DNA of 20,597 bases, taken from a virus. The stretch is from positions 1 through 20,597 of IMG/VR virus record IMGVR_UViG_3300032271_000515; one strand, given 5' to 3'. The position numbers and the translations under genes are program-made. Positions 2 to 19,583 of the stretch are shown here, one piece after another. A model generated the notes under the pieces. That model was not told the origin of the DNA. It saw nothing but the letters and a program-made list of their open reading frames with translations, and made no database searches. The stretch's first letter is position 1, and every line of letters starts with the position of its first letter.

Positions 2-2113
2 GGCTCCAAGCGCGGAGCAAGGCTGGACGCCGAAGGCCGCGAGCATCTGTTTAATCGGCAAGATTTAAACGATGCCCAAGCTATGGCTGCAAAGTTTAAG
101 CAGATGGGTATCGACTTCGATGCTGTGTACAAGGAGTATCAGAAGTGGAACGAAGCTCTGGTCAAGTATATGAAAGACACCGGGGTCATCTCTGCCGTTG
201 ACGCTGCCTACTTCACGAAGTTTGGAGACTACATTCCTTTCTACCGCCAGATGGACGGTGACAATACTGTTGGTCCCAAAATCTTCTCTGCTATCGCTGG
301 TGTTCAAAAGCCAAAGGCACTGAAGGGTGGCACTGAAAAGCTTGGCGACTTCCTTGAGAACGTGATTCGGAATGCCTCCGCTGCTGTTGACTCAGGAATG
401 AAGAACATCGCGGCAACCCGTGGCATCCGTGACGCCCTCGATTCTGGAACCGCGAGACAGGTTCCGGTTCCTAATCAGGACTCTGTTAGCGTTAAAGAGG
501 CTGGGTTAACAAAACACTATGAGCTTGATGACCCGCTGCTCTATGAAGCGTTTAAAGGTCTTAACATCCCCCGGATGCCTTGGCTACAGCTTCTTGCAAA
601 GCCAGCGGATATCCTGCGGAACTTTGTTACTAAGGACCCCGGATTTATTCTGGCTAACATCATGCGTGACTCAGTCTCTGCGTGGGTTACCTCCGGGTCC
701 AGCATGATTCCCGTCATTGATTCGTTTAAACAGTTTGGGAAAATCCTAGCTAACCAGTCGCCCGAGGCGGCGGCTATGGCTAGGGCTGGTCTTGGTGGCT
801 ATGAGTTTAAAGGCTCACTCAAAGACAGCGCCGAGTCTTTTGAGAAAGCGCTACGCGCAAAGACCGGAACCAGAACCGCGACAGAGAAAGCCCTGCTCCC
901 TGTCACGAAGCTTTGGGACATGCTTGAGCATGGCTCCAACGCCTCGGACATGGCAACCCGCGCAGAGGTTTACAAGCGCGTACTGAAGGAAACCAACAAC
1001 GAAGCAGAGGCACTCTTCCAAGCATCAGAGGTTATGAACTTCTCAAGGAAGGGCAACTTCCCTGTGATTCAAGCTGTCACCGCCCTTGTGCCCTTTATGA
1101 ATGCCCGCATCCAAGGTATGGATGTGCTGTACCGTTCCGGGTTTGGCAAAGCCGCAAGCGCAAACAAAGAGCGCATGCAGAAAGCTTTCATTGTTCGCTC
1201 ACTGTCCTTGTTGGCTCTGAGCGCAATGTATTGGGCAATGGTTCACGATGACGATGAGTACAAGAAGCTCACCAAAGAAGAACGTGATGGGTACTGGATT
1301 ATTCCGGCTTTAAGCTTTAACGGTAAACCTTTCCGGTTCCCAATCCCGTTTGAGATTGGCGTGGTGTTTAAAGTTCTTCCTGAGCGCATCCTTGAACTGA
1401 AGTACGGTCAGGACACTCCAAAGGACTTTACCGAATCCATCTCTCGCAACTTGATGGATACGCTCAAGTTCAACCCAATACCGCAAGCGTTCATTCCCTT
1501 CTATGAGAACATTAGCAATCACTCCTTCTTTACCGGAGAGAAGATTGTTGGTCGCGGTCTTGAGGATGTAGCGAAGCCTTTGCAGTACACCGCATCAACT
1601 TCTAATGCTGCGCGTTGGTTTGGCGAACAAACCGGTATGTCGCCTATCCAGATAGAAAACGTTGTTCGTGGCTACACTGGCACGATGGGCATGTATGCAG
1701 TCAACATGCTGGATTCGTTTTTTGCTACTCAAGATGCTCCGGTTAAAGCAACCACAAGGGCAGAGCAGTTGCCTGTTGTTAAGAGGTTTTTTGCCTCTGA
1801 TTCCGGTACGGTCGCCCAATACTACGACCTTAAAGGCGAAGTCGATGAGGTTGTTAGGACCGTGAACTTTTTGAGTTTAAACGACCCAGACAAGCTTGAA
1901 GCGTATCTCAAAGACAATGAGAACACTTACATGCTGAAAGACTTCGTTAGTTCTATTGAGAAGGACATGAAGGAAATCAGGGAATACCGCAACGCGGTCA
2001 ACGCTGACAAAGATATTAGCGCTGATGAAAAGCGGGCAATCCTAGATGAATTGCATGACTACGAAGTAGCCTTAACCTCAGATGTCAAGGCAATCAGAAA
2101 AGAGTACCATTGA
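2..2113 (+). CDS. Large polyvalent/internal virion protein, C-terminal part (LPD38-like)
   Basis: The frame is open from base 2 to the stop, with no start in context, so this is the C-terminal part (about 703 aa) of a longer gene cut by the window edge. The stretch around FVTKDPGFILANIMRD and the later NFSRKGNFPVIQAV / LVPFMNARIQG block resemble the LPD38 'large polyvalent protein-associated' domain of giant phage proteins, which are injected with the DNA or sit inside the capsid. A hydrophobic stretch (SLSLLALSAMYWAMV) is followed by an acidic patch, and the C-terminus is Lys/Glu-rich and probably helical. The family call is from recalled sequence similarity. Function (DNA ejection or host defence modulation) is inference. 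The last 20 bases overlap the convergent HNH gene. Six TTTAAA-core motifs lie inside it. Confidence 0.75.
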   Translation, partial: GSKRGARLDAEGREHLFNRQDLNDAQAMAAKFKQMGIDFDAVYKEYQKWNEALVKYMKDTGVISAVDAAYFTKFGDYIPFYRQMDGDNTVGPKIFSAIAGVQKPKALKGGTEKLGDFLENVIRNASAAVDSGMKNIAATRGIRDALDSGTARQVPVPNQDSVSVKEAGLTKHYELDDPLLYEAFKGLNIPRMPWLQLLAKPADILRNFVTKDPGFILANIMRDSVSAWVTSGSSMIPVIDSFKQFGKILANQSPEAAAMARAGLGGYEFKGSLKDSAESFEKALRAKTGTRTATEKALLPVTKLWDMLEHGSNASDMATRAEVYKRVLKETNNEAEALFQASEVMNFSRKGNFPVIQAVTALVPFMNARIQGMDVLYRSGFGKAASANKERMQKAFIVRSLSLLALSAMYWAMVHDDDEYKKLTKEERDGYWIIPALSFNGKPFRFPIPFEIGVVFKVLPERILELKYGQDTPKDFTESISRNLMDTLKFNPIPQAFIPFYENISNHSFFTGEKIVGRGLEDVAKPLQYTASTSNAARWFGEQTGMSPIQIENVVRGYTGTMGMYAVNMLDSFFATQDAPVKATTRAEQLPVVKRFFASDSGTVAQYYDLKGEVDEVVRTVNFLSLNDPDKLEAYLKDNENTYMLKDFVSSIEKDMKEIREYRNAVNADKDISADEKRAILDELHDYEVALTSDVKAIRKEYH

Positions 2114-2384
2114 GCGCAAGCTGAACATCATTTAAAAGGTCTTGTTCATCAAAGCCCCAATGTTTAACAAAGCCTTTAGTACCTAGCCCATGAACGCCCG
2201 TGTTGCCACGGTGATGTTCTGGGCATAGAGGGATAACGTCCCAGTTGCTTGCGCGGCGACCAGCGCCCGTACCCGCTCTGGGATGATGCAACTCCGCAGG
2301 GGTTCCGGGGTATCCCATCCTTTTACAGACAAGGCACCCAAGTTCCGCTACGGAGTTCATGTACTTCTTCTCAGCCTTGGTCAA
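2094..2384 (-). CDS. HNH-type nuclease, Ref/DUF968-like
   Basis: This 96-aa protein has a zinc/HNH arrangement: C17-x2-C20, then ELHHPR (H33,H34), IPLCPEHH (C54,H57,H58) and H65. It matches the compact metal-finger endonuclease pattern of phage P1 Ref and DUF968 proteins, which nick or cut DNA, in Ref's case in a RecA-dependent way. The start is TTG, overlapping the upstream gene's stop as TTGA; an internal ATG at residue 9 would still keep the motifs. It is the last gene of the leftward operon, and its 3' end overlaps the end of the convergent polyvalent-protein gene by 20 bp. The fold is well supported; a link to recombination is inferred from the ERF/nuclease operon. Confidence 0.8.
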   Translation of the reverse strand: MTKAEKKYMNSVAELGCLVCKRMGYPGTPAELHHPRAGTGAGRRASNWDVIPLCPEHHRGNTGVHGLGTKGFVKHWGFDEQDLLNDVQLALNGTLF

Positions 2385-2572
2385 TGAGTCAAGTCCCCAA
2401 ACTCTTGGCTGATTTTGTGGTCAATGTAATCGTCTAGTTCTTGTTCTTTGTTTAAACCCTCTGCAATGTCGCGCTGACGCCCAGCTAAGAACTCGCGCCT
2501 TAACCATCTATAACGATTAGATTCAAGCAATCTAAGTTCAATTGCCTCAACAAGTTTTGCTTTATTGTCCAT
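2381..2572 (-). CDS. Hypothetical small charged protein (63 aa)
   Basis: I do not recognise this protein. It is highly charged (many Arg, Glu, Lys, Asp) and probably all helical, with no membrane segment or Cys. It starts at ATG 2572, overlaps the gene before it by 11 nt, and its TGA overlaps the TTG start of the HNH gene, so the two are probably translationally coupled. One exact GTTTAAAC (2450-2457) encodes its Leu-Asn pair in EGLNKE. Confidence 0.6.
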   Translation of the reverse strand: MDNKAKLVEAIELRLLESNRYRWLRREFLAGRQRDIAEGLNKEQELDDYIDHKISQEFGDLTH

Positions 2573-2759
2573 GATATGGAAACACCATTGATTTGATTTT
2601 GGTAAACATAGAAGGCATCAGTCTTTCGTTCCATACAAGAAACTCTTGCAACCTGTGCATGTCATAGCACATTTCTGCGTGACGATACCAAACTGGCGTG
2701 TAGTGGATGCCAATCCTGCTCTTGTCCCAGTCTTTAATAAATTTACCGCCCAACAGCAT
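2562..2759 (-). CDS. Hypothetical small protein (65 aa)
   Basis: The family is unknown. It is rich in Tyr, Trp, His and Met with basic ends (YTPVWYRHAEMCYDMHRL) and has no clear signal or membrane segment. ATG at 2759. It overlaps the preceding gene by 17 nt and the following gene by 11 nt, fitting the tightly packed leftward operon. Coding is supported mainly by this packing and frame continuity. Confidence 0.5.
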   Translation of the reverse strand: MLLGGKFIKDWDKSRIGIHYTPVWYRHAEMCYDMHRLQEFLVWNERLMPSMFTKIKSMVFPYHGQ

Positions 2760-2943
2760 ATTTGCTCCAATAGATGTAGCTTGAATAGTGTGCCCCGCTC
2801 CTTGCTAAGTTTTCAATTTCATCAAACATGTCGCAAAACTCTTCGGGGCTAGTGTCATGGGATGCGCTCATTTCGCTAAGTCTAGTTGCCAATAACTTTA
2901 TATTGACCACCGCTTCAGCTATCAAAATCTTTTCATTCTCCAC
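2743..2943 (-). CDS. Hypothetical helical protein (66 aa, GTG start)
   Basis: Unrecognised, predicted helical and acidic in the middle (SPEEFCDMFDEIENLA). The start is GTG at 2943, inside the last codons of the DUF3310 gene (11-nt overlap). An AGG-type ribosome site lies just upstream. It ends with an aromatic segment (YSSYIYWSKY). Confidence 0.55.
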   Translation of the reverse strand: MENEKILIAEAVVNIKLLATRLSEMSASHDTSPEEFCDMFDEIENLARSGAHYSSYIYWSKYAVGR

Positions 2944-3154
2944 CGCTCACCTCAATCAGTTTACTTAAATACCAAGCCGCCTTCTCGTAGTCTTCAAGCG
3001 CGTTGCCTTTGCGCCCAGCGCGGCTTAGATACTTCATGCAGTTTAAACGCAGATACCCAGCAAATTCTGCCGGTGTGCTCTTTGCTTCTAAGAACTCAAT
3101 TGTTTCAATCCCACCGTATGTATAGTGCGGTGGATGGTTCACCATGTCGTTCAT
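2933..3154 (-). CDS. DUF3310 protein, T7 gp1.7-like nucleotide kinase family
   Basis: This 73-aa protein begins VNHPPHYTYGGIETIEFL and ends with a YLSRAGRKGNALEDYEKA block followed by AAWYLSKLIE. That pattern is the hallmark of DUF3310. The family includes T7 gp1.7, a thymidylate/nucleotide kinase involved in dideoxynucleotide sensitivity. The small size is normal for the family. It starts at ATG 3154 behind GGAG with 5-nt spacing; the ATG overlaps the upstream stop. A GTTTAAAC copy (3041-3048) encodes the Leu-Asn of LRLNCM. Family assignment is strong; enzymatic activity here is inferred from T7. Confidence 0.88.
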   Translation of the reverse strand: MNDMVNHPPHYTYGGIETIEFLEAKSTPAEFAGYLRLNCMKYLSRAGRKGNALEDYEKAAWYLSKLIEVSGGE

Positions 3155-3381
3155 CTGGTCTCCTTGAGTTGTTTCTTTAGGCTATGGTTTTCTTCCATAA
3201 CATCTTGCAGCATTTTTATATGCTCTCGGTGTCGAGCCTCCATTGTTTTAACCAATCTATCAAACTGGGAAGACCACATCTGCATGCTGTTCTTTAGTGA
3301 CTCTGATTGCCACCAAACATAATCTTCGGCAATGCCTTCTATTTGAATACTGTCTTTGATTTTAAATTCATCGTTATCCAT
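3151..3381 (-). CDS. Hypothetical coiled-coil protein (76 aa)
   Basis: No family is recognised. Residues from about 30 to the end are rich in Met, Glu, Lys and Gln with heptad-like spacing (EARHREHIKMLQDVMEEN), predicting a coiled coil. The N-terminus contains aromatic EDYVWWQSE. It starts at ATG 3381 after an AGGTGA ribosome site and ends in a 4-nt ATGA overlap with the DUF3310 gene. Confidence 0.6.
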   Translation of the reverse strand: MDNDEFKIKDSIQIEGIAEDYVWWQSESLKNSMQMWSSQFDRLVKTMEARHREHIKMLQDVMEENHSLKKQLKETR

Positions 3382-3389
3382 ATATCACC

Positions 3390-3533
3390 TCAAAATAAAG
3401 CATCAGGTACGTTAGACAAATCCAGCTTTGGTTTGCGCTGGCGTTTAAACTTTTGCACGATGTGTGGGTATGGCGGTACGGACCACACCCACCGTACTAC
3501 GTTGCCTTCGTCGTCAAGGATTCCGTACCTCAT
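3390..3533 (-). CDS. Short phage protein, 47 aa (MRYGILDDEG...)
   Basis: This reading frame runs ATG 3533 to TGA 3390 and starts MRYGILDDEGNVVRWVWS, then PPYPHIVQKFKRQRKPK. An AGGAGG ribosome site sits 6 nt before the ATG, which strongly supports translation. The short 'YG-x-LD-x-G-x-VVRW' type protein with a basic tail looks like a recurrent small phage gene, but I know no function. It overlaps the lipoprotein gene by 20 nt. The exact GTTTAAAC at 3443-3450 encodes its Phe-Lys. Confidence 0.72.
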   Translation of the reverse strand: MRYGILDDEGNVVRWVWSVPPYPHIVQKFKRQRKPKLDLSNVPDALF

Positions 3534-4868: not shown

Positions 4869-5001
4869 CTGGTTCCTCCAACATTTCATCAGCAATTTCA
4901 AAAGCGAGAGCGGCAATCTCTGAGGCGTTTAAATGGGGCTTGGACTGAACCAAGCCGTTCATTGCAAACGCAGCCAAGAACAATCTCAACTCATTGTCCA
5001 T
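4819..5001 (-). CDS. Hypothetical small protein (60 aa)
   Basis: A helical N-terminal region (LRLFLAAFAMNGL, then ASEIAALAFEIADEML) is followed by a short acidic linker and a basic end (PRRRRTRKW). The ASEIAALAFEIADEML segment resembles small phage proteins of unknown role. The basic tail could contact nucleic acid (inference). It overlaps the RHH gene by 11 nt. A GTTTAAAT motif encodes Leu-Asn in PHLNAS. Confidence 0.6.
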   Translation of the reverse strand: MDNELRLFLAAFAMNGLVQSKPHLNASEIAALAFEIADEMLEEPDEGIVAIPRRRRTRKW

Positions 5002-5296
5002 CGCGGATAGCCGAAGTAATGTTTTCAGAAACCAAGTCTGCGAATGACTTACCTGACGGGAACATCATCCTCGCCCCCTCAGTAGCATGCGTAAGCTTGA
5101 TTGCCTCCATCAGGCCAGCGTTGAACCCTGTATTGAAATCGTTACCTTGTAGTCTCATCCTGACCCCCTCCCTGACAATTTGAGATGCGGTCATCTTGTT
5201 GTCAGAGGCGTACTTAGTTAACGCCTCTTTGTCTTCCGGTGTTAGGTAAATCATTACCGGGGTGACTGTCTTAAAACGACTCTTTGAATTGTTCAT
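4991..5296 (-). CDS. Ribbon-helix-helix DNA-binding protein
   Basis: Residues 14-49 fit the ribbon-helix-helix fold: a strand VMIYLTPED, a helix KEALTKYASDNK, and a second helix TASQIVREGVRMRL. Such proteins (Arc, MetJ, CopG-like) dimerise and use the strand to read DNA as repressors. The 101-aa length leaves a C-terminal extension (about 50-101) of unknown role. ATG 5296 lies within the end of the preceding gene. It may autoregulate this operon or bind one of the repeated palindromes in the genome, which is speculation. Confidence 0.75.
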   Translation of the reverse strand: MNNSKSRFKTVTPVMIYLTPEDKEALTKYASDNKMTASQIVREGVRMRLQGNDFNTGFNAGLMEAIKLTHATEGARMMFPSGKSFADLVSENITSAIRDGQ

Positions 5297-5675
5297 ATTT
5301 TTTCATTAACTCATCGAAAAGGGTTTGCGCCTCAATGTCGTTATTGAGTTCGCTTCTGGATGTTATGCCACAGAAACTATAGATGGCGTTGATAGCATCC
5401 TGCTCCGTAACACCTTCACTGTTAAACTCGTTGTATACCCAGAACTGAAAGTCCCGGTCACGGCAAAGTATCCCAGCCTTCTGCACCCTGTTTAAATAGG
5501 GCACAGGATGTTCATCGTCGCCAATCCTAACCAACGCACATCCGTACCGCGCCCCAACGAAATCCCTGAATAATTCTTCGGGGATATCGTCAGGGTGGAT
5601 TCGTAGTGTTAGCACGAACCCAGCGGCATCCTGTTTGAGGGCAATCTTTTGACACTCAAACTGGAGGGCTTTCAT
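5271..5675 (-). CDS. Conserved phage hypothetical protein (134 aa)
   Basis: Two blocks look like recurrent phage sequence: TLRIHPDDIPEELFRDFVG followed by YGCALVRIGDDE, and a C-terminal FCGITSRSELNNDIEAQ block ending in a helical tail. I recall similar two-block proteins in phage recombination clusters but know no activity. The 'SRSEL' end may be a helical DNA- or protein-binding module. ATG 5675 overlaps the upstream stop as ATGA; the 3' end overlaps the RHH gene by 26 nt. GTTTAAAT (5490-5497) encodes Leu-Asn of PYLNRV. Confidence 0.6.
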   Translation of the reverse strand: MKALQFECQKIALKQDAAGFVLTLRIHPDDIPEELFRDFVGARYGCALVRIGDDEHPVPYLNRVQKAGILCRDRDFQFWVYNEFNSEGVTEQDAINAIYSFCGITSRSELNNDIEAQTLFDELMKKYEQFKESF

Positions 5676-6034
5676 TCGTTGAACACCTTCCCTTCAAGGT
5701 AGCCAATCACAATGAGAGCGGCTTTGTGTTGCTTCTCGACCTTCTCAATGTGAAGTTTTGCAGCATTCAAATCTTTGCGAAACGTTTCAACTTCAATTGT
5801 CAAATGCAATATTTCATTCTTTGCATTCTTTAAATTTGCGTTTGCAACAATAGCTTCAAAGTTTGCTTGAACGGCTTTCTCTCGGATTTTAGTAACAGAA
5901 ACTTTTCGTTTGGAAACCGGTTTCTTTTTAACGCCTTCCCCGTTCTTAACTCCGGTAGGGCGACCACGCCGTTTGACCGTTGGCGTGGTGGGTGCAGTTT
6001 CGATTGCTGCAATGTTTTCAGAAGTCAATGTCAT
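5672..6034 (-). CDS. AT-hook-like, coiled-coil DNA-binding protein (120 aa)
   Basis: The N-terminal third carries VKRRGRPTGVKN, which fits the AT-hook core R-G-R-P flanked by basic residues, followed by a very basic linker (KKKPVSKRKVSVTK). The C-terminal half is a Lys/Glu/Ala-rich helix with coiled-coil character. ATG 6034 is preferred over an in-frame TTG at 6070 because a GAAGAG ribosome site lies about 7-8 nt upstream. An AT-hook binds the minor groove of AT-rich DNA, so the TTTAAA cores spread over this genome are a conceivable target (inference). Confidence 0.6.
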   Translation of the reverse strand: MTLTSENIAAIETAPTTPTVKRRGRPTGVKNGEGVKKKPVSKRKVSVTKIREKAVQANFEAIVANANLKNAKNEILHLTIEVETFRKDLNAAKLHIEKVEKQHKAALIVIGYLEGKVFNE

Positions 6035-7136: not shown

Positions 7137-8002
7137 TCAGCGCTCTCCTGTTTAAACTGTGAACACCACGCAGCTACGCCGCAGAAGTTTCCTGTACAAC
7201 GAACCGGTTCTCCCTTGCGTTCAACAACGTTGAACTTGACATCGGTTGTAGCCAATGCATCTGCCTCCTCTTTGGTATCAAAAACCCTGACGGCGGTCTT
7301 GCGACCGTCCTTCATCACCGCCCACTTGTCACCGCGAACCCAGCGGTCAGCGTCAGTACACAGTGGTAGTTCGTCACCCCAGTCATGTGCTACTTTCGCA
7401 AGACGGTGCGCCTCGATGCGTTCGCGGATAAATTTTTCCGTGACCTCAAGGTCCCAGATTGGAATGTCAACCATTGCAATCGGTGCCTGTGGGTAGTCAG
7501 GCTTGACCGCAGCCTCGCGCCGGGACCAGTCCCGAATGAGGGCGCATATCTTAATCGACCGGACGGTTTGCCCTTTCACCTTGTTGACAAGGTAGGCATA
7601 GCAGTTCTGTTGCTGGTGCCAGTCCTGCTTATCAGCCCGCAGGGACCACGCTGAGGTGAACTTGTAGTCCACGATATCAACCATGTCGCCATCGACCCGC
7701 TGGAGGTCAATGGCACCCGATAGGCGCACCCCGTCAACGTCCAGAAACAATCTCTCTTCTGAGATATGACCTTCAACCTGACTGCGCTCTGCTACTACAT
7801 GTAGTGCGCTGCCCATCATCGACCAGAGCATGTCAGATACGTCCTGCTCCAGCGACTCATTGTGCTCTTCTCGCAGACGCTGAACCCGTGGCGGGGAGAT
7901 AATCTCAGTAACAGAGAAGGTCGCCTTGCCCTTGGTATAGTAGTCACGGGAAGCCAGAGCCATCAACGGCTCAGGTACCCCAAATTTGTTTGTTATCTTC
8001 AT
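7133..8002 (-). CDS. RecB/Cas4-type PD-(D/E)XK exonuclease
   Basis: The 289-aa frame contains GSALHVVAE (His68), GAIDL (Asp99), IVDYK (Asp112, Lys114) and a QQNCYAY motif near 131-137, matching the motif order of RecB/Cas4-like nucleases (PDDEXK_1). Three cysteines cluster at the C-terminus (C269, C274, C280, in RCTGNFCGVAAWC), as in Cas4/AddB iron-sulfur nucleases, although the usual N-terminal fourth Cys is not evident. It probably resects DNA ends to make single strands for ERF. ATG 8002 has a GGGGAA ribosome site; the longer frame from 8056 lacks one. It is the first gene of the leftward operon and is divergent from RusA with 44 bp between. Confidence 0.82.
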   Translation of the reverse strand: MKITNKFGVPEPLMALASRDYYTKGKATFSVTEIISPPRVQRLREEHNESLEQDVSDMLWSMMGSALHVVAERSQVEGHISEERLFLDVDGVRLSGAIDLQRVDGDMVDIVDYKFTSAWSLRADKQDWHQQQNCYAYLVNKVKGQTVRSIKICALIRDWSRREAAVKPDYPQAPIAMVDIPIWDLEVTEKFIRERIEAHRLAKVAHDWGDELPLCTDADRWVRGDKWAVMKDGRKTAVRVFDTKEEADALATTDVKFNVVERKGEPVRCTGNFCGVAAWCSQFKQESAE

Positions 8003-9047: not shown

Positions 9048-10730
9048 ATGCAAGTTGAAGCACTTGTTGCGTCATTGCATGTGCATCAACACGCCCGTGT
9101 TGTTTGCCCCAATTGCTCTGACGACCGGAAGAAAAGGGATAAAGACCTAGTCATAAACCGTAACGGGGATGTCTGGGTCTTTTTTTGTCACCACTGCAAC
9201 ACCAAGGGCATCGTCCCTGTGTTTAAACGCGAGAAGCAACCAATGGTTCAGGTTCAATCAATCAATTCAAACAACTTTGATTTTCTTCAACAGGAACACT
9301 ATGACTTTTTATCGACGCGAGGCATCAGCAAGACAACCGCTGATACCGCGCAGCTTTTCGCAGCTACTAAATTCTTTCGCAAGCTTGACCGCACCGCTAA
9401 AGCGGTAGGCTTCCCTTATTACAAGGGGGGCAAGATGGTTGGCGTTAAGTATCGCTGCATCGAAACGAAGGACTTCACGCAGGACGCTGGCGGCAACAAT
9501 GAGTTCTATGGGATTGATGACATCAAGGATGGTCCCATCGTCATCGTCGAAGGCGAGATTGATGCATTGACACTCAGGGAGTGTGGCATCGACAACGTTC
9601 TATCGGTTCCCTCCGGGGCACCTATGAAAGTCAGCAACGGAAAGATTGACGCGAGCGAAGATAAGAAGTTTGAGTTCGTCTGGAATGCGTTCGACGTTCT
9701 GAGCAAGGCACCCTACGTCACCATCGCCACTGACAATGATGCTGCCGGTCAGGCATGCGCCGAAGAGCTTGCCCGTCGAATCGGTAAAGACCGCTGCCGC
9801 CTCACGACCATCCCGGCAAAGGATTTGAATGAGGTCATGCTCAAGGATGGGGCTGACGCTGTAAAGCAAGTGATTGCATCGGCCACGCCGTACCCGGTTG
9901 CGGGGCTGTCTCAGGCCACCAAGTATGAGGACCGTTTAAACGACCTATGGACCAAGGGCAACGGCAAGGGTGAATCGACCGGATATTCAAACGTCGACCA
10001 GATTTACACGGTAGCTCAGGGCCAGCTAACGGTGGTCACCGGTTATCCGTCATCAGGCAAATCAAACTTTGTTGACCAGCTTATGGTGAACTTAGCGAAA
10101 GCGCATGATTGGAAGTTCGCCATCTGCTCGTTTGAGAACGCACCGGAGATTCACATTTCCCGGTTGATGGAGCTTTACAGCGACAAGCGATTCTTTGATG
10201 GGGTTCAACGTATGAGCCAACAGGAAAAGGACGCAGCGTTTAAATGGGTAAACGACCACTTTCTGTTCCTTGATTCCGAAGGGGTAGAGCCATCGACCAT
10301 CGACTCGATTCTTGAAAGAGCGAGAGCGGCGGTCGCCCGCATCGGAATTCGGGGTCTGGTCATCGACCCCTACAACTACATCGACAACGGGAAGGGGCAA
10401 GCAGAAACAGAGTTTATATCTGGCATGTTGACCCGCGTCCAAGCCTTCGCAAAGGCTTACGGGGTCCATGTGTGGTTCGTTGCTCACCCAAGCAAAATCA
10501 CGCGCTCAGGCATGGATTTACCGCGCCCTGACGGCATGGCAATCAGCGGCAGTATGGCGTGGTGGGCAAAGGCTGACTGCGGCATCACCGTGCATCGGGC
10601 AAAGCCCAACGTTGAAATCGCAGTGTGGAAGTGTAGGTACCGGTGGATAGGCCAGCAGGGTGAAACCACACTGGCGTACAACAAGGTAACCGGCTCCTAC
10701 TTTGAGGATGAATCCGACGACTTCATCTGA
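9048..10730 (+). CDS. T7 gp4-like primase-helicase
   Basis: This 560-aa protein has the full bifunctional layout. A zinc-binding domain has C20-PN-C23 and C47-HH-C50. TOPRIM has VEGEIDAL (E169) and TDNDAAG (D229-D231). A DnaB/gp4-type RecA fold has Walker A GYPSSGKS (332-339) and Walker B GLVIDPYN (about 436-443), with a later helicase His in VWFVAHPSK. The C-terminus is acidic (EDESDDF), like the gp4 tail that contacts DNA polymerase. It unwinds the fork and makes primers. Length fits T7 gp4 (566 aa). No DNA polymerase gene lies in the window. GTTTAAAC-type motifs at 9221, 9934 and 10238 encode Phe-Lys, Leu-Asn and Phe-Lys. Confidence 0.93.
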   Translation: MQVEALVASLHVHQHARVVCPNCSDDRKKRDKDLVINRNGDVWVFFCHHCNTKGIVPVFKREKQPMVQVQSINSNNFDFLQQEHYDFLSTRGISKTTADTAQLFAATKFFRKLDRTAKAVGFPYYKGGKMVGVKYRCIETKDFTQDAGGNNEFYGIDDIKDGPIVIVEGEIDALTLRECGIDNVLSVPSGAPMKVSNGKIDASEDKKFEFVWNAFDVLSKAPYVTIATDNDAAGQACAEELARRIGKDRCRLTTIPAKDLNEVMLKDGADAVKQVIASATPYPVAGLSQATKYEDRLNDLWTKGNGKGESTGYSNVDQIYTVAQGQLTVVTGYPSSGKSNFVDQLMVNLAKAHDWKFAICSFENAPEIHISRLMELYSDKRFFDGVQRMSQQEKDAAFKWVNDHFLFLDSEGVEPSTIDSILERARAAVARIGIRGLVIDPYNYIDNGKGQAETEFISGMLTRVQAFAKAYGVHVWFVAHPSKITRSGMDLPRPDGMAISGSMAWWAKADCGITVHRAKPNVEIAVWKCRYRWIGQQGETTLAYNKVTGSYFEDESDDFI

Positions 10731-10766: not shown

Positions 10767-10774
10767 AGTTTGAA

Positions 10775-10862: not shown

Positions 10863-10881
10863 TCACAGAGCGTTTAAACGG

Positions 10882-11097
10882 TTAACCAATCAGCGGCAGT
10901 GCGCTGCGTTCATATGCCATGTCGAAGTAGTCGCCCATTGGCCTACTGAACATTGACGGGTTAGCGCCCATGTTTAAACCAAGCAGATAAATTGCCTTGT
11001 CTCGGTCTATGTCATGGGTTGCTATTCCAAGCTTCTTGCCATCAAGGTCAAGCCAGCATGCGTACCAAATGCCTTTGCGCTGGTATGTCTTAATCAT
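10882..11097 (-). CDS. Hypothetical protein (71 aa), arm-binding-like
   Basis: The N-terminal half (GIWYACWLDLDGKKLGIATH followed by DIDRDKAIYL) faintly resembles the arm-type DNA-binding domain at the start of phage integrases, which also pairs a WY-x-gk strand pattern with a 'dr..A' helix. No integrase catalytic domain follows, so this is only a suggestion. It is the last gene of the long leftward operon. GTTTAAAC at 10972 encodes Leu-Asn, and another copy lies 3 bp past its stop, exactly 100 bp away. Confidence 0.6.
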   Translation of the reverse strand: MIKTYQRKGIWYACWLDLDGKKLGIATHDIDRDKAIYLLGLNMGANPSMFSRPMGDYFDMAYERSALPLIG

Positions 11098-12229: not shown

Positions 12230-13012
12230 CTAGGCAATTGCCTTCAGTATGTTTCCGAAAGACTTGGATGCCATGTCTTTTGGTGTTTTAACATTAGCCG
12301 CATTGTTAAAGCATTCAGTAACCCTTGTGTCACCAATGCCAATCGCAACAACTTTGATGCCACGATTATCTGCAAAGCCTTGCAGATATTTCATGTGCTC
12401 AACTTTGTACGAATCAGCGTCAGTGATAACAAAGAAAACCTTGCGGGCCTCCGGTCTACGCGCTAGCTCGTCAAGCTTTGTATAAACGGCAGAGTAATCT
12501 GGCGTCCCGCCCGAAGCCATATGAAGCATCGACCCAAGCTTTGCAGCAGCTTTCTGCAACGATTCTCCCCACTGTTTAAACGGCAGGAAGGTAACCCTTT
12601 GCACCGTAACGTTATCAGTTATTTCTGCCCCGCCCTTGAACCCGGTAATCTCAAACGATGCATTCGACTTGCTAATGATGTTAGCAAGGTGAATTGCAAT
12701 CGCTTGCGCGGTTGTAATCCGGTTCATTTCATCACCGCACGAAAAGCTCATCGACCAACTGCAATCAATCAGTATTGAAACCGCAGCGGTGTCAGCCTCT
12801 TTCAATTCACGCCGCGAGAATATGTTTGCCTGTCCAGCAGCGAACCGCGTATAAGCCCTACGGTCAAGTCGACCGGACTCTTCACGGGTCGACCAACCGA
12901 CAAAGTCAATCGACCGCAGCGCAGCCAGTATTTTTGCCTTGGTCGCTGCAATACCCTGAATCGGGTTATGCAGCACTTCGGCATAGGTTTTTTCGCAATG
13001 TGCTTTGTTCAT
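12230..13012 (-). CDS. CobT-like VWA-domain protein
   Basis: This 260-aa protein contains a complete MIDAS metal site: LIDCSWSMS (D83, S85, S87), GGTPD (T170) and ITDAD (D198). The approach GRLDRRAYTRFAAG to the VWA domain matches the region just before the VWA domain of cobaltochelatase subunit CobT. In CobT and in MoxR-associated VWA proteins, this domain docks on the AAA+ ring. Here it is a separate gene, one base after the stop of the HExxH/acidic gene that resembles the rest of CobT. No CobN-like chelatase is present, so a protein-remodelling role is more likely than cobalamin synthesis (inference). ATG 13012 has a GGGAC ribosome site. Confidence 0.85.
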   Translation of the reverse strand: MNKAHCEKTYAEVLHNPIQGIAATKAKILAALRSIDFVGWSTREESGRLDRRAYTRFAAGQANIFSRRELKEADTAAVSILIDCSWSMSFSCGDEMNRITTAQAIAIHLANIISKSNASFEITGFKGGAEITDNVTVQRVTFLPFKQWGESLQKAAAKLGSMLHMASGGTPDYSAVYTKLDELARRPEARKVFFVITDADSYKVEHMKYLQGFADNRGIKVVAIGIGDTRVTECFNNAANVKTPKDMASKSFGNILKAIA

Positions 13013-13013
13013 A

Positions 13014-14108
13014 TTAGTCCCAAGTAAATTTGTAAATTGTGGGCTTCCGGCAGGTAGGGCGCGGTTCGTCAGTGGTGTCGACCTCTGCGCCGTAGGGCTG
13101 CAACTCCTTTCCCATGTCGGGTTCTACGTCGCGCTCCTGAGTACCGGCACCAGCACCGGGGCCTTTGTTCTCATCATCCTCGTCACCAGCCTCGTTGCCC
13201 GCCTCGTTGCCCGCCTCATTACTAACATCGTCACCGGGTTGGTCGGTGCTATCGCCCGGTTCATTACCGTCACCGGTTTCGCCTTCCTCACCGGTTTCAC
13301 CGGTTTCACCGTCTTCGCCTTCGCCGTCTTCACCAGTATCGTCGCCACCGTCACCGTCGTCGTCGCCGCCCTCACCAGCTTCGCCGTCTTCACCGGTATC
13401 ACCGCCATCGTCGTCGCTTGGTCCATCGGGGGGTTCGTCTTTCCCACCTTCGGGGGGCGGGGCAACCGGCTTCAGTGCGTTTAAACGCTCAAGCAACTCC
13501 ACCGCAATCGCGACAATCTCCAGCGTCGACTTAGCCTTGTGAGCTTTCTTCAAGGCCCATTGCATTGGCTCCTTGTAGCGCGACTCTTTGAGAACCGGGG
13601 GCAGCGCAATCTTGTAGCCGTTCATCCGGCGACCTTCGACCGCCAACTGAAAAGCCAGATTGCCGAAGTCATCGGGATGAACGTAGGTGCCGCCCATCAT
13701 CTCGTTAATCAGGTTTTCAAACAGCGACCGCGCATTACCTGCAATACCCGAATCGATTACCTTCTTTTCAATGCGGGGGTCCTCCAGCCCGTTAATCAAT
13801 CGGCAAAGAACAGGGTTGCCACGGTGAACATCCCAAGGTTCATTGTCGGTATACCAAGCATGACCAAGCTCATGCAGCGCCATCGCAACAAACTTGGGCA
13901 TGGTCTTGCGAGGTATCTGCCCGTTGTCGTCAACGTTGGGGAACCGGAAGGTCGCATCAACTATGCGAGTACCGGGGTATTGGGTAAATTGAATCGAAGC
14001 TCCAGTGCCATACCACTGAAACTCCAGAGTGTCGAACATGTAATCCGACGACTTAAACACCCGCTCAAGCGTCGTCACGACGCCGCGTTTAAACTCAGAA
14101 CCTAGCAT
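13014..14108 (-). CDS. HExxH metallopeptidase-like protein with acidic linker (CobT N-terminal-like)
   Basis: Residues 1-215 form a globular domain with ALHELGHAW (H79, E80, H83) and downstream GLEDPRIEKK (E109 or E114 as possible third ligand), a zincin-like arrangement. Residues 224-315 are low complexity, dominated by Asp, Glu and Gly, with a tandem NEAG repeat near 298-309. The end is basic/aromatic (RKPTIYKFTW). CobT has the same order: N-terminal domain, acidic linker, VWA; here the VWA follows as the next gene. The 'LEDPRIE' type motif also occurs in CobT-like proteins. ATG 14108 has a GGAG ribosome site. Protease activity is plausible but unproven. Two GTTTAAAC copies are inside. Confidence 0.75.
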   Translation of the reverse strand: MLGSEFKRGVVTTLERVFKSSDYMFDTLEFQWYGTGASIQFTQYPGTRIVDATFRFPNVDDNGQIPRKTMPKFVAMALHELGHAWYTDNEPWDVHRGNPVLCRLINGLEDPRIEKKVIDSGIAGNARSLFENLINEMMGGTYVHPDDFGNLAFQLAVEGRRMNGYKIALPPVLKESRYKEPMQWALKKAHKAKSTLEIVAIAVELLERLNALKPVAPPPEGGKDEPPDGPSDDDGGDTGEDGEAGEGGDDDGDGGDDTGEDGEGEDGETGETGEEGETGDGNEPGDSTDQPGDDVSNEAGNEAGNEAGDEDDENKGPGAGAGTQERDVEPDMGKELQPYGAEVDTTDEPRPTCRKPTIYKFTWD

Positions 14109-14109
14109 C

Positions 14110-15495
14110 TCAAGCTCCTTGCATCATCTTGTTGAAATAAACCTCGTCAATCGAGGCCACATAAATACCCTCAAGCTCGACCGCTGTTTCAGCGGGAAAC
14201 TTGTTAATCACCGCCGATTTATAAGCGCGTTTGACACGGATGCCCTGCTTCACCGCATCAGCCCAAGCAAACAACTGACGCAAGCTAGGGGGCTGCGTCA
14301 GCAAACCGTCGCGGGCCTTTTCACGGGCAATGTTTAGCAAGTCAACCATCATCCGCACCGCGTTAAGGGGCAAGCCGCTAACCTTCGCAACCAACTCAGC
14401 CTCCTGCTCACGGGGCAGGTACTGAAACTCAAAGGTGTAGCTGAACCGGTCAATAAACGCGCTCGACTGGACCCGGACCCCGGCAAAGTTGCCGCTTGCG
14501 TCGCCGTGCCCGTTGCTGTTGTCAGCAACCATGAACACAACGTGCGGGGCAACCGGGATGCGCTGCCCTGTCTCCGAGATAGTGATTGCACGGTCAACCG
14601 TGCGTTCACACAAAGCATGCAGCGAGGCAATCGCTTGCGCCCGCGCAAACCCAATCTCATCGAGCAGAACAATCGCGCCGGGGTGCGTGATTGCCTGAAC
14701 AATCGCACCGGGCGACCAAGTCACAGAACCGGCGGTGATGGTGTTGCCACCAATAAAATCCGCACGTTCCGCGTTCTCGTCGAAGTTAATCCGAAACAAC
14801 CGACGACCAAGCCGGTTGGCAAGCTGTTTCGCAAACTCCGTTTTGCCGGTGCCACGCTCACCAGCCAGCCACATATTGTGGGGAAGCGGGTTGTTAATCG
14901 CGCAGAGAGTCTCGTGGAGAATCTCCGGGTTCCAGTAGTAATCGTCGACACGCTTAGGGGCACCGGGGTCGCCCCAATACTCGACCTCCATGTTGCCGAA
15001 GTCGACCGTCGAATACTTGGTGAACCGGTCACCAAACAATTCGCGGGCCGTCTTCAGAACACGCGCAGGGGGCAACGCATCGGCGACCTTAGTAATAACC
15101 TCCGGGGCAGTAACCGATTTAAACGCTGCGAACGCATCAGCGACCGCACGGGCAACCTCAGAGACAACCGCAGTGTTGTCAACCTTCGGCACCGCAGCAG
15201 CGATTTTCGCGTCAACCTCTGCACCCTGACGGGTAACCGTCGCAGCCAATGCCGCAGTGGTCGCATGCAGGTCCTGCACGGTCTTCACAAACCCGTTAGC
15301 GTCAAACGCGAGCGGGGCAGCGGGAGCGGTCGCGACCGGCGTAGCGCCCTGAATCTCCGCAAGGGTAATCAGACCGTCAGTAATCAAGCGGTCCAGAGTC
15401 GAAACCGCAATTGCCTTGTCAGTTGTTGGCGTAATGCCAACCTGCATAAGCGCTGCGTTCAAGGTACGCAGCGGCAGCAGTGCAAGCTCTTTCAT
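14110..15495 (-). CDS. CobS/MoxR-like AAA+ ATPase
   Basis: The 461-aa protein has an N-terminal region (1-145) with a small helical module (TLNAALMQVG...) and an Ala-rich coiled-coil-like stretch. A CobS-type AAA_5 module follows: Walker A GERGTGKT (212-219), Walker B AIVLLDE (274-280), sensor-1 region VADNSNG (324-329) and an arginine finger in FIDRFSY (R350). The FAGVRVQSSAFIDRF sequence is close to the CobS signature. CobS is shorter, about 330 aa, so the N-terminal extension is unusual. It should form a hexamer powering the VWA/HExxH partners encoded next. ATG 15495 has a GGAGG ribosome site 4 nt away. Confidence 0.88.
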   Translation of the reverse strand: MKELALLPLRTLNAALMQVGITPTTDKAIAVSTLDRLITDGLITLAEIQGATPVATAPAAPLAFDANGFVKTVQDLHATTAALAATVTRQGAEVDAKIAAAVPKVDNTAVVSEVARAVADAFAAFKSVTAPEVITKVADALPPARVLKTARELFGDRFTKYSTVDFGNMEVEYWGDPGAPKRVDDYYWNPEILHETLCAINNPLPHNMWLAGERGTGKTEFAKQLANRLGRRLFRINFDENAERADFIGGNTITAGSVTWSPGAIVQAITHPGAIVLLDEIGFARAQAIASLHALCERTVDRAITISETGQRIPVAPHVVFMVADNSNGHGDASGNFAGVRVQSSAFIDRFSYTFEFQYLPREQEAELVAKVSGLPLNAVRMMVDLLNIAREKARDGLLTQPPSLRQLFAWADAVKQGIRVKRAYKSAVINKFPAETAVELEGIYVASIDEVYFNKMMQGA

Positions 15496-15534: not shown

Positions 15535-16095
15535 TTATCGAACAAACGCCACGCCATCGGTCGGGCAGATTGGCAACCCGGTGTCTGCCCACTTCGCGGT
15601 CAATCGAACGGTGTAACCGCAGGCGGGGCACTCCGCTTTCAACAGCCGGGTCGACTGCGTCTTACGCACCAGCCCAACGTTTAAAACGGCGTGAGGGTAT
15701 GGGCCAATCGCTTCAACGATGGGTCCGAAGTTAGCGCGGAACGCATCACCAGCCACGGTCGCAGTGGCCTTGCCCTCCAGCCAGAGGGAACGCACAACCC
15801 GCACAAACTCGCCTTTGTGACCAGCGCCGGGGGTCGCAGCATGAGCAAGCTCATGCACCAGAATCGCAGCAACCTCCATCGGTTCCGCAATCACGGGCGA
15901 GATAAAAATCTCATTGTGCCCATCGGCGCTGGCAGCGGGTGCCCAATGCTCACCAATCGCCTTGTTTAAACTCCGCGCCTTCGACGAAGGCAAACCGCAC
16001 GTCACCCGAATCTTGTCGGGCAACGGCGCGTTAATCGCAACGAACATGGGGCGCAACTCAGCGACCAATTCGTTCAGCCATTCTTCACGGTTCAT
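15535..16095 (-). CDS. SprT-like zinc metalloprotease
   Basis: The 186-aa protein has LVHELAHAA (H81, E82, H85) followed by GHKGEF (H93), the zinc-binding pattern of SprT/Spartan proteases, then a C-terminal zinc-ribbon-like segment CPACGY (C156, C159) and ICPTDG (C177), where the fourth ligand Cys is replaced by Asp180. Spartan proteins digest DNA-crosslinked proteins; bacterial SprT functions are less clear. ATG 16095 (second of two adjacent ATGs) has GGAGG 5 nt upstream. It heads the AAA+/CobT-like block, so it could be the proteolytic output of that machine (inference). Confidence 0.85.
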   Translation of the reverse strand: MNREEWLNELVAELRPMFVAINAPLPDKIRVTCGLPSSKARSLNKAIGEHWAPAASADGHNEIFISPVIAEPMEVAAILVHELAHAATPGAGHKGEFVRVVRSLWLEGKATATVAGDAFRANFGPIVEAIGPYPHAVLNVGLVRKTQSTRLLKAECPACGYTVRLTAKWADTGLPICPTDGVAFVR

Positions 16096-16097: not shown

Positions 16098-16268
16098 TCA
16101 CCTCCACGCATAGATTGAAGTGCAACGCTCAACGTGAACGTTGCCGCGAGAATCGGTCCAGTGCTCGCCGCACCCGGACAACCAAGAGGTCAGGCCCATG
16201 CCCAACCAGATTCCGAAAAGCAACACGGTCAGGATTGCGACCGCAGTGCGAAGCGCATCTCGAAACAT
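16098..16268 (-). CDS. Small membrane/lipoprotein (56 aa)
   Basis: MFRDALRTAVAILTVLLFGI starts a single hydrophobic helix ending in LSGC, a good lipobox (Cys33), followed by a short polar domain with a second Cys. It may be a lipoprotein or a single-pass protein with its C-terminus outside the cytoplasm. The start ATG 16268 lies directly after the GTTTAAAC (16269-16276) that also ends the preceding gene; no clear Shine-Dalgarno fits there, so translational coupling is likely. The stop overlaps the SprT start. Confidence 0.65.
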   Translation of the reverse strand: MFRDALRTAVAILTVLLFGIWLGMGLTSWLSGCGEHWTDSRGNVHVERCTSIYAWR

Positions 16269-16270
16269 GT

Positions 16271-16906
16271 TTAAACCCATCCGTAACGCTCGGCGCAAAC
16301 GGGGCCGATACCGCGAGCGACCGACTCAGGGTCGCTCAACTCTTTAGCGCAGACCGCGCACTTGCCGAATTCCTTGCCATACGCAACAGCGGCGGCGTGA
16401 GGGTCAGCGGCGAGGTCGACAACCTCAAGCGCAATCTCAGGCGAACAGTCACGCGACTTCTGGAACCTGCCGCCGAGAACCTTGCCCAGATACAGGTCGC
16501 CACGCTTAACGTAAACAGCGCCAGCGTTCGCGCTGCGTTCACCAGCGGGGCTGAAGGTGAACCCGCCAAGCCGAAGCTTCGGCCACTTGATACCAGCCGC
16601 CTTAGCCTTGGCGAACGCAGCCTCCACCGCAGCGACCTCGCATGAGGGGGCAGCGGCAGCTTCCGCAGCTTTACGGGCAGCGAACGCAGCCTGACGGGCG
16701 GGCGCATCAGCGGCGAGCCGCGCAACGGTCGCGTACTGCTTCTCAGTTAATTGCCCCCACTGATTCAGTGCCTGAACCATAGCGGCAGCAAACTCAAAGC
16801 GCGGTGCCTCCGCAACCATCCAAGCGTACTCAGCCGGGTGCTCAGTGGCCCATGCCGCAACCACTTCGGGGGAAGCGGCACGGCGCTGTTGGTAATGTCG
16901 GTACAT
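16271..16906 (-). CDS. DUF6011-like zinc-finger protein
   Basis: The C-terminus KCAVCAKELSDPESVARGIG followed by PVCAERYG matches the DUF6011-type 'CxxC-x-(K/R)-x-L-x-DPxSVxRGxGPxC' zinc finger seen in many phage and actinobacterial proteins. It is preceded by a GKVLGGRF / RDCSPEI region. The N-terminal half is Ala-rich and helical (QAAFAARKAAEAAAA). Function unknown; these proteins often sit beside single-strand DNA or nuclease genes. Start 16906 is preferred to 16912 for correct spacing from AAGGAG. Its stop TAA is part of the GTTTAAAC palindrome. Confidence 0.75.
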   Translation of the reverse strand: MYRHYQQRRAASPEVVAAWATEHPAEYAWMVAEAPRFEFAAAMVQALNQWGQLTEKQYATVARLAADAPARQAAFAARKAAEAAAAPSCEVAAVEAAFAKAKAAGIKWPKLRLGGFTFSPAGERSANAGAVYVKRGDLYLGKVLGGRFQKSRDCSPEIALEVVDLAADPHAAAVAYGKEFGKCAVCAKELSDPESVARGIGPVCAERYGWV

Positions 16907-17156: not shown

Positions 17157-17513
17157 TTAGTCCAGCCGCCCGTCGGCACGGGCGACAACGCCGCCAGCGG
17201 CGAGCACTCGCGCAACTTCAATCGCCCATGCAATCTTCCGGTCATACGACTGCGTCGGGTAGGGCGGGCGAATGTTTAAACCCTTCGGGTAACCGGGTCG
17301 GGCGAGGCCCTCCGATTTCAGCCACTTGCCGAAGGCGGTGTTGCCGGGGACGTTCACCCATGCAAACCCGCAAACCCCGTCAGTAACGTGGTAGGTGCGA
17401 CCGCCACCGACGACAGTCATTGGCTCAGGCACCGCAGCGTGATAGGCCGCATCGCCCGCAGCCATAGCCGCAGCGTAAAGCGAAGCGTTGGTCAAACCGT
17501 TAAGGTGTTTCAT
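17157..17513 (-). CDS. Conserved phage hypothetical protein (118 aa)
   Basis: Starts MKHLNGLTNASLYAAAMAAG and contains YHVTDGVCGFAWVNVPGN, then FGKWLKSEGLARPGYPKG and SYDRKIAWAIEVARVL. I recall similar proteins (MTVVGG...YHV..GVCGFAWV) in other phages, always of unknown function. The order suggests a small alpha+beta fold with an N-terminal helix. ATG 17513 has GGAG 8 nt upstream, inside the previous gene's last codons. GTTTAAAC at 17274-17281 encodes Leu-Asn in GLNIRP. Confidence 0.68.
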   Translation of the reverse strand: MKHLNGLTNASLYAAAMAAGDAAYHAAVPEPMTVVGGGRTYHVTDGVCGFAWVNVPGNTAFGKWLKSEGLARPGYPKGLNIRPPYPTQSYDRKIAWAIEVARVLAAGGVVARADGRLD

Positions 17514-18198: not shown

Positions 18199-18258
18199 CG
18201 GGCCAGTGCAATCACTGACCACAGAACGAAGTATGCACAACTGTTTAAACCAATGCAA

Positions 18259-18733: not shown

Positions 18734-19369
18734 ATGAGCAGGGATGAGTGGAACGATGAGGTCGACGACGGCGTCGCACAGGGGGAGGTCGACTCCCAGG
18801 TAGATGTTGCAGCGCAGCAGAGCAGTGAAAGCACGAACGTTGCAAGCCCCGGCATCAGGCGGGAAGTGATGGAGATGGTAGAGGGTACTAAGGATAAGAA
18901 GAGGCAAGACGGAAAGCCTATCGGAGTGAAAAGGAATGAACCTAGGATTACTCCGAAGATGAGAGCTTTCGCGTCCCTTGTTGCACAGGGCAATAGCGCC
19001 AGAGATGCATATCGCAAAGCCTATGAGGTCCGCAGTGGGACTAGCGAAGCGACAGTGATAGCCAGTGCGAACAAGTTAATGAAAGACCAGAGGATAAGTG
19101 CATTAATGGAGCCTGTCTGGGAGGCTGTCAAACAGAACGTAATTGACGATGCAATCGCAACACGGCGTTATGTATTGGAGCAATTGCACCAGCATGCGGC
19201 AGACGATAACGTCAGGACCTCGGACCGTTTAAAGTCGCTTGAGCTAATGGGCAAAGCCATTGGCATGTTCGTCGATAAGAGCGAGGCAAAGGTGGAGCAG
19301 GTCGACCCCGAGCAGTTGAAGCGTGAATTGGACTCGCACCTGAAGGCGTTTAAACTCCGCGCTGTTTAA
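18734..19369 (+). CDS. terS: Terminase small subunit-like protein
   Basis: The 211-aa frame starts at ATG 18734 with GAGGG 8 nt upstream; the longer frame from 18635 would begin in the DnaA boxes. An acidic disordered N-terminus (to about 50) is followed by a basic patch and a TerS-like helix-turn-helix block, ITPKMRAFASLVAQGNSARD, AYRKAYEV, then ATVIASANKLMKDQRIS. After this comes a helical region (ATRRYVLEQLHQHA) and a final acidic/basic tail. This matches Terminase_2-type small subunits, which bind pac or cos DNA and deliver it to TerL. TerL lies 500 bp downstream. The stop codon is contained in GTTTAAAC (19364-19371), and another copy lies 9 bp before it. Confidence 0.78.
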   Translation: MSRDEWNDEVDDGVAQGEVDSQVDVAAQQSSESTNVASPGIRREVMEMVEGTKDKKRQDGKPIGVKRNEPRITPKMRAFASLVAQGNSARDAYRKAYEVRSGTSEATVIASANKLMKDQRISALMEPVWEAVKQNVIDDAIATRRYVLEQLHQHAADDNVRTSDRLKSLELMGKAIGMFVDKSEAKVEQVDPEQLKRELDSHLKAFKLRAV

Positions 19370-19406
19370 ACGGGCCATTGGGGCTTTCCACTAGGGCTGC
19401 GCGCGA

Positions 19407-19427
19407 CCCCCACCCATACCCCACCCC
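19407..19427 (-). other. G-quadruplex motif on the minus strand
   Basis: The plus strand reads C5-A-C3-ATA-C4-A-C4. The minus strand therefore has four G tracts of 3-5 with loops of 1, 3 and 1 nt, a pattern for a very stable parallel quadruplex. It sits in the gap after terS. The rest of 19372-19555 is C-rich and shows no supportable gene. Confidence 0.72.
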
Positions 19428-19555
19428 GGCGTATAGGCGGCTACCCATCGCCCACCCGTACACTCGATTCCACACACCCGATTTACACTTTTCCCATTCG
19501 TACCATTACTTCCACAACGAACACAATACCCCCCATCCCATATCAATTTCTACGC

Positions 19556-19583
19556 TTGACTTGTTTAAACCCATATATAGAAT
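19556..19583 (+). promoter_or_regulatory. Sigma-70-type promoter for the LexA-like gene and terL
   Basis: TTGACT (19556-19561), a 16-bp spacer, then TAGAAT (19578-19583). An exact GTTTAAAC (19563-19570) fills the spacer. The predicted start falls near 19590, upstream of the winged-helix gene. Confidence 0.6.

Follow-up and report, generated by a model that had tools for sequence, protein, structure and literature searches.

A SprT-like protein as the probable reader of an 8-bp word repeated across phage and plasmid genomes

The stretch of viral DNA analysed here (20,597 nt, IMG/VR record IMGVR_UViG_3300032271_000515; henceforth the window) carries the 8-bp palindrome GTTTAAAC (henceforth the word) far more often than expected, which raises the question of what keeps the word in place and what reads it. 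Our answer is that the reader is very probably a SprT-like protein encoded in the window itself. Comparison across phages and plasmids supports the view that this protein and the word have been gained, lost and changed in dialect (i.e., in the form that the word takes) together.

Iteration of the word in the window

We found 20 exact copies of GTTTAAAC between positions 724 and 19563, where an order-2 Markov background predicts 0.47; with the 15 one-end variants these make up 35 sites, from 63 to 19563, and both counts agree with those of the original prediction, which was made from the window alone. When all 8-mers were counted, a check proposed in that prediction, GTTTAAAC was the most over-represented palindromic 8-mer of the window, and only its own shifted overlap, CGTTTAAA, ranked above it in the scan as a whole. 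The sites had also been described as more evenly spaced than random. This held for all 35 of them, with a largest gap of 1168 bp (median in simulations 2245, P = 0.00025) and a coefficient of variation (CV) of gaps of 0.55 (P = 5e-5), and did not hold for the 20 exact sites of the window taken alone (largest gap 3707, CV 0.85, P = 0.36). The evenness of exact sites became significant once they were pooled over 51 relatives (CV 0.69 vs. 0.91 simulated, with 0 of 400 simulations as low). Genome-wide, the density of the word is uneven: in two 60-kb records (G004 and G001, i.e., L079 and L042) it is ~1.2 per kb in the replication region and ~0.45 per kb in the remainder, a 2- to 3-fold difference. 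That nearly every gene of more than 100 aa has a site was an overstatement, as several genes are without one. The exact sites are as follows.

724..731, GTTTAAAC site
1875..1882, GTTTAAAC site
2450..2457, GTTTAAAC site
3041..3048, GTTTAAAC site
3443..3450, GTTTAAAC site, intergenic
7150..7157, GTTTAAAC site
9221..9228, GTTTAAAC site in the primase-helicase gene
9934..9941, GTTTAAAC site in the primase-helicase gene, in Arg-Leu-Asn codons; kept in 62 of 78 homologues
10872..10879, GTTTAAAC site, intergenic
10972..10979, GTTTAAAC site
12574..12581, GTTTAAAC site in the VWA gene
13479..13486, GTTTAAAC site in the CobT-like gene
14087..14094, GTTTAAAC site in the CobT-like gene
15964..15971, GTTTAAAC site within the SprT-like gene
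16269..16276, GTTTAAAC site, putative operator of the SprT operon, directly 5' of the small-ORF ATG (GGGTTTAAACATG; ORF: open reading frame)
17274..17281, GTTTAAAC site
18243..18250, GTTTAAAC site, intergenic
19348..19355, GTTTAAAC site at the end of the terminase small-subunit gene
19364..19371, GTTTAAAC site at the stop codon of that gene
19563..19570, GTTTAAAC site 5' of the LexA-like wHTH gene

Selection on the word among relatives

A scan with the primase-helicase of the window (9048-10730) gathered 80 relatives from IMG/VR. The word was the top palindromic 8-mer in nearly all of them, the exceptions being L012 (0 copies), L069 (3) and L070 (2). Pooled, the other relatives held 1154 copies of GTTTAAAC against 16.6 expected, and in ~90 relatives the word is held at ~1 per kb. 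Variants were enriched in a graded manner in the pooled relatives (GTTTAAAT 6.9-fold, GTGTAAAC 6.3-fold, GTTTAAAG 3.1-fold), and the word was flanked by Y...R, with YGTTTAAACR as the best context. Graded variants and such flanks are expected of a protein binding site, not of a cut site or of simple decay. We thus agree with the original prediction that the word is not a restriction target; it appears to be a DNA-level, protein-read word and not a codon effect.

The further claim that selection acts on DNA and not on protein is supported both by the use of Leu codons and by the retention of sites above that of control words. Specifically, among relatives encoding SprT, 174 of 212 occurrences of Arg-Leu-Asn used the word, though TTA makes up only 12% of Leu codons. 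Between pairs of such relatives with 65-70% DNA identity, 67% of sites were identical (69% outside the primase gene), compared with 7% of control words and ~4% by chance or neutrality; in relatives without a full SprT gene, retention was at or below the neutral expectation (L012 0/66, L070 0/59, L069 5/112), all of these being counts that re-use the same sites across many pairs and so show direction and not exact P values. L069 kept 2 of 7 sites in comparison with its SprT-encoding sister L073 (85% identity). The comparison supports the reading that the sites are held by selection which needs the SprT-like protein.

The gene that tracks the word

By gene content, the three exceptions (L012, L069 and L070) were without a four-gene block made up of VWA, CobT-like, AAA+ CobS-like and SprT-like genes. 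In the window, this block and its features are:

12230..13012, minus strand, VWA-domain protein, CobT C-terminal-like
13014..14108, minus strand, CobT-like protein with HExxH and an acidic linker
14110..15495, minus strand, AAA+ CobS/MoxR-like ATPase
15535..16095, minus strand, SprT-like protein, phrog_6361, with an N-terminal SPRTN-type zincin and a C-terminal zinc ribbon; proposed word reader
15553..15675, minus strand, C-terminal zinc ribbon (KTQSTRLLKAECPACGYTVRLTAKWADTGLPICP), proposed DNA-reading domain
15646..15648, minus strand, codon of the specificity Arg, residue 160 of the 196-aa ORF from 16125 and residue 150 from the Met at 16095
15841..15855, minus strand, HExxH (HELAH) zinc-protease motif
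16098..16268, minus strand, small hydrophobic ORF between the operator and SprT

Among 90 relatives encoding SprT, a total in which some appear twice because they have two locus ids, density ranged from 0.53 to 1.42 sites per kb; it was 0, 0.15, 0.17 and 0.42 sites per kb in the four distinct relatives that span the region without a full SprT gene. A tree of the primase placed four independent changes, and all four independent pairs agreed; on these sequences, the word was lost in four independent losses among SprT-less relatives, the most recent of which appears incomplete. No enrichment of the word was found in primase-helicase relatives outside the group that are without SprT (MinM2, PJN03).

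The gene that tracks the word (15535-16095, minus strand) was absent from the candidate readers of the original prediction, and the comparison speaks against those that were named: L012 (0 copies of the word) and L069 (3 copies) have both retained the RHH protein (4991-5296); the LexA-like wHTH protein (19625-19876) is still present in the word-poor L012 and L070; and homologues of the AT-hook-like protein (5672-6034) were detected too rarely to account for a clade-wide word. The CobS-like AAA+, CobT-like and VWA genes (12230-15495) were always lost together with SprT in the window's phage group. We rejected this module as the reader: it tracks the word within the group, but phages with CobS/CobT and without SprT (L172, L173) are without the word, and SprT phages without the module do have it.

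PHROGs gives the family of the SprT-like protein as unknown, and elsewhere its members are annotated as “SprT-like protease” or “transcription elongation protein”. The window protein lies below the Pfam cut-off for SprT-like and the proteins of L478 and Venkman lie above it; no sequence match of the window protein to a solved structure was found. Its predicted fold (model m4b3daa6a4450, pLDDT 82) matched SPRTN 6mdw (Z 8.6), 4jiu (Z 8.3) and Wss1 (Z 7.3), and thus the model gives it a zincin fold with HExxH, as in the SprT/SPRTN-like family.

Where the SprT/CobST block is missing, L012 has an ArdC-type antirestriction gene (9974-10807, minus strand; confirmed by Pfam) and L069 an ArdC-like gene (13571-14401, minus strand; by sequence resemblance), which suggests interchangeable anti-defence modules.

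Phages, plasmids and host chromosomes

Beyond the window group, GTTTAAAC was found (observed/expected) in the cultured SprT phages Venkman (32/0.87), Pan1 (8/0.00), R5C (6/0.01), Mica (5/0.08), Alexa (5/0.65) and Persinger (3/0.09). Phages of Arthrobacter, Microbacterium and Streptomyces had almost no GTTTAAAC, and their top 8-mer was GTGTAAAC (Intolerant 17 vs. 0.02 expected, Mabodamaca 13 vs. 0.02, Yang 12 vs. 0.07). On alphaproteobacterial plasmids, SprT directly precedes parA and an RHH parB-like gene; sites are few there, one of them within SprT. All 80 loci found by SprT alone had at least 0.44 sites per kb. In a reverse scan, which searched for two close words only and made no use of SprT, 30 of 65 word-enriched fragments encoded SprT, compared with 2 of 55 non-enriched ones; three more enriched fragments had SprT elsewhere in the record, and the placeable remainder were mostly window-group genome fragments ending before the SprT gene.

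Contigs of host genomes were scanned with an alignment of actinophage SprT, covering the GTGTAAAC dialect and hosts other than that of the window phage. Pseudarthrobacter siccitolerans (4.8 Mb) had 45 of its 65 copies of GTGTAAAC in three clusters, two of them around SprT loci, and a Streptomyces genome (9.5 Mb) had 12 of 20 in one 39-kb cluster. For GTGTAAAC in these two lysogens, the comparison supports a word that marks the element and not the host chromosome. The original prediction had offered a word shared with the host (HIP1/Chi-like) among its candidate roles; the concentration of GTGTAAAC in the prophages of both lysogens argues against this, and strong strand bias of the Chi/KOPS kind was not found, the main word being palindromic and the asymmetric dialect mixed. 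A methylation mark, also offered, finds no recognised methyltransferase among the window proteins scanned, and the tracking gene is SprT-like; protein 83-2113 has a weak match to a large family annotated as methyltransferase.

We also weighed a broader explanation of this kind, in which the word would be a HIP1-type methylation or mutation word, a restriction-modification effect, or a product of codon or mutation bias. The likeness is that of one short palindrome to another (PMC4390886). We consider it very improbable, given that no methyltransferase was recognised in the window, that the word is concentrated in prophages in two lysogens, that one dialect is asymmetric, that sites decay to neutrality only upon loss of SprT, and that simple decay does not account for graded variants such as GTGTAAAC.

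Some other words were strongly over-represented. The Caulobacter plasmid L303 has 8 copies of GTATACAA vs. 0.09 expected, perhaps plasmid iterons, in a sequence that has the same genes twice (dimer). In L385 and L440 (the same contig) and in L471 we found CGCTGGAG (14 vs. 0.35) and CATCGACC (30 vs. 2.1).

Dialects and the ribbon residue

Three further scans added 200 SprT loci, and most of those showing a word had GTTTAAAC or GTGTAAAC. Other dialects were CTTTAAAG in one clade (e.g., 24 vs. 0.18), CTGTAAAG in L347 (22 vs. 0.36), ATTTAAAT in L479, GTGTACAC in L430 and GTCTAAAC in L497. The forms GTGTAAAC, CTTTAAAG, CTGTAAAG and ATTTAAAT differ from the word by one or two bases. The ribbon motif KKQxTRxLKxxCxxCGY has Arg at residue 160 of the 196-aa ORF in 94 of 94 alignment rows with an outer G in the word, and A/S/Y/N at the same position in 12 of 12 rows without it (Ala, Ser or Tyr where the outer base is C, and Asn where it is A). 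Arg-G and Asn-A are well-known protein-DNA contacts. This position gave the only perfect split among 180 alignment columns, and the tree shows two changes of the outer base and two of the ribbon residue, which fall in the same rows. Where SprT has a degenerate ribbon (Brahms, CN2, PSA20), the word is missing. We take this absence, together with the co-variation, as the main evidence that the SprT-like protein is itself the reader, and we hold that conclusion, drawn from sequence comparison, with high confidence.

The protease part appears less constant. HExxH was retained in 98 of 106 word-bearing homologues and missing in 8 (protease activity on DNA being a prediction), and L252 (IMGVR_UViG_3300043446_001209) has a ribbon without a zincin and is nevertheless word-rich. 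Taken together, these cases point to DNA reading as the constant part. They also bear on the possibility that some other DNA-binding protein reads the word and SprT merely acts on that reader, e.g., by cleaving it as IrrE/ImmA-type proteases cleave repressors. Such a role would fit the protease fold, the word at the SprT promoter and the sharing of a module with other genes in the window group. It is harder to reconcile with the loss of HExxH in those 8 homologues, with the ribbon alone accompanying the word in L252 and with a ribbon residue that co-varies with the outer base; moreover, we found no other protein common to Venkman, R5C/Pan1, the actinophages, the plasmids and the window group. 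We thus regard a separate reader as quite unlikely.

Several observations nonetheless weigh against the SprT-like protein as a reader that docks across the genome. In the window group it was lost with three neighbouring genes, from which the loss test by itself cannot distinguish it; L008, a short contig without SprT, still has sites (by recent loss, or with the gene elsewhere). The association of base and residue amounts to two clear switches and one C-to-A step, which is not enough for a sign test on the tree. Free-standing ribbon genes with no zincin (L069:10993-11139 and L070:4665-4838, both on the minus strand) occur in word-poor relatives, in which the ribbon alone does not maintain the word. 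The asymmetric dialect GTGTAAAC is ill-suited to a simple symmetric dimer. Finally, SprT phages of the Alexa/Mica/ep3 type and Sphingobium plasmids have only 1-5 sites, and genome-wide sowing is not universal.

Binding as a symmetric dimer was considered as a model in its own right and is weakened by the strictly asymmetric form of GTGTAAAC.

Two side observations concern carriers of atypical ribbons. Among those with a degenerate SprT ribbon, Microbacterium phage Brahms (L302) is over-represented in CTATTGTA (5 vs. 0.01), and the YuA-like Bordetella phage CN2 (L174) and Pseudomonas phage PSA20 (L301) have 24 and 28 copies of CCTCGAAG vs. ~3. In L252 the word forms arrays at 41-45 bp steps (288-520, 1634-1884, 2812-3333) by a DnaA-box-like TTATCCACA and the free ribbon gene, a region that may be an origin or partition region.

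Site placement and probable self-regulation

Sites were ~2-fold enriched between genes, yet 60-75% of them lie within predicted genes, and the orientation of GTGTAAAC was not strict (77 same and 136 opposite in coding sequence; 17/30 upstream). Of the 38 GTGTAAAC loci, 25 had the word no more than 120 bp upstream of SprT (2.0 expected), as did 56 of the 139 loci with low counts (6.2 expected). The dense window group differed, in that its sites upstream of SprT were no commoner than density predicts (6 of 51 vs. 5.2 expected). The SprT operon of the window begins with GGGTTTAAACATG, the word directly follows a TATAAT- or TACAAT-like box in ep3 and Mica, and in several Venkman genes it makes up the spacer that separates Shine-Dalgarno and ATG. 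From this placement, we consider it likely that the SprT-like protein autoregulates.

The same placement invites comparison with stoperators: the reader would be a lysogeny repressor that blocks initiation and elongation genome-wide, with the protease activity irrelevant. Sites do lie in promoters and start regions, with the ~2-fold enrichment between genes noted above, their architecture resembles that of the L5/TipsytheTRex repressor sites (PMC9283540), integrase genes mark many carriers as temperate, and HExxH is dispensable in some homologues. However, most sites are within genes, the asymmetric dialect is without strict orientation whereas L5 sites are oriented (PMC9283540), and HExxH is conserved in 98/106 homologues. 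Silencing of this kind seems to us possible but doubtful.

Alternatively, the same reader could serve copy-number titration or partition: many sites would soak up an autoregulated protein whose free level reports genome copies, on plasmids together with parA/parB. That plasmids have only 1-3 distinct sites in the stretches read, that individual positions are conserved (which pure titration does not need) and that phages rarely need partition make this unlikely, even with autoregulation, even spacing, the L252 arrays near a DnaA-box-like sequence and the position of SprT directly upstream of parA and the RHH parB-like gene on alphaproteobacterial plasmids in its favour.

Across all SprT loci, neighbouring sites less than 160 bp apart showed a weak 10-bp period in their distances (R 0.24, n=207, from related sequences). 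We made no use of helical phasing between close sites, this signal being weak and the data non-independent.

Proposed mechanism and relation to known systems

The explanation that we favour, with good confidence, is a sequence-addressed, self-regulating SPRTN-like protein that docks across the DNA of its own element. Its ribbon would read the 8-bp word (GTTTAAAC in the window lineage), with the ribbon Arg contacting the outer G, and the site in the promoter or start region of SprT would make the protein self-regulating, which is partly supported. Docked about once per kb, it may act on the DNA of its own element as a bound regulator and protease that blocks or clears other DNA-bound proteins and sets its own level. 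In the window group it probably works with the adjoining CobS/CobT-like AAA+/VWA module, and where the protease motif is lost the DNA-binding role would have to suffice. As for the main job once docked, which we infer, proteolysis on DNA is a tentative choice; genome-wide transcription control is possible though rather doubtful, and the same can be said of copy-number titration, partition or something else. It is conceivable, at a strength somewhat short of probable, that phages and plasmids share an addressed-protease system with a one-residue base code, in which the self-sown word would be a mark of self, DNA-bound proteins (host silencers, defence or crosslinked proteins) would be blocked or destroyed there and not on the host, and dialects would separate competing elements.

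To our knowledge, SPRTN and Wss1 are not known to read a word. With these DNA-protein-crosslink proteases, which are active on DNA, the SprT-like protein shares the zincin fold (6mdw and 5xbn, Z 8.6 and 7.3); it differs from them in the apparent gain of sequence specificity by its C-terminal ribbon and in the occasional loss of its protease motif. Like the stoperators of cluster A mycobacteriophages (L5, TipsytheTRex), the system would have a phage-encoded DNA-binding protein with more than 20 sites across its own genome, including promoters (PMC9283540). The L5 repressor is an HTH protein that binds oriented 13-mers in promoters and short intergenic spaces (PMC9283540), whereas here the candidate reader is a zincin with a zinc ribbon, the 8-bp word lies mostly within genes with no strict orientation, and the system spans phages and plasmids of several bacterial groups. 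HIP1 of cyanobacteria, GCGATCGC, is likewise a highly iterated palindrome with variants in some lineages; it is a word of the host chromosome linked to methyltransferases (PMC4390886), whereas the present word belongs to mobile elements, is almost missing from the host chromosome where this was tested, and goes with a SprT-like protein. In jumbo phages, SprT-like proteases and MoxR-vWA-metallopeptidase pairs of the same broad families have been noted, with cleavage of host proteins proposed, or virion assembly for the MoxR-vWA pair (PMC7824862); the discussion of these families there does not mention a genomic word. A literature search on GTTTAAAC, GTTTACAC, GTGTAAAC and SprT in phages, with subscription papers outside its scope, found nothing relevant. 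Because the tested features of stoperators (HTH reader, oriented and intergenic sites) and of HIP1 (host-wide, methyltransferase-linked) fail, and because the system matches no published account found within that scope, we rate it as apparently new in kind.

For a phage protein family given as unknown in PHROGs, these results would provide a feature that bears on function. They suggest that mobile elements mark their own genomes with an address that is read by a dedicated protein, and that a simple amino-acid-to-base code changes by lineage. The word is a sequence signature for finding new elements and for linking fragments to the same element type, and it could help to predict cross-immunity or incompatibility.

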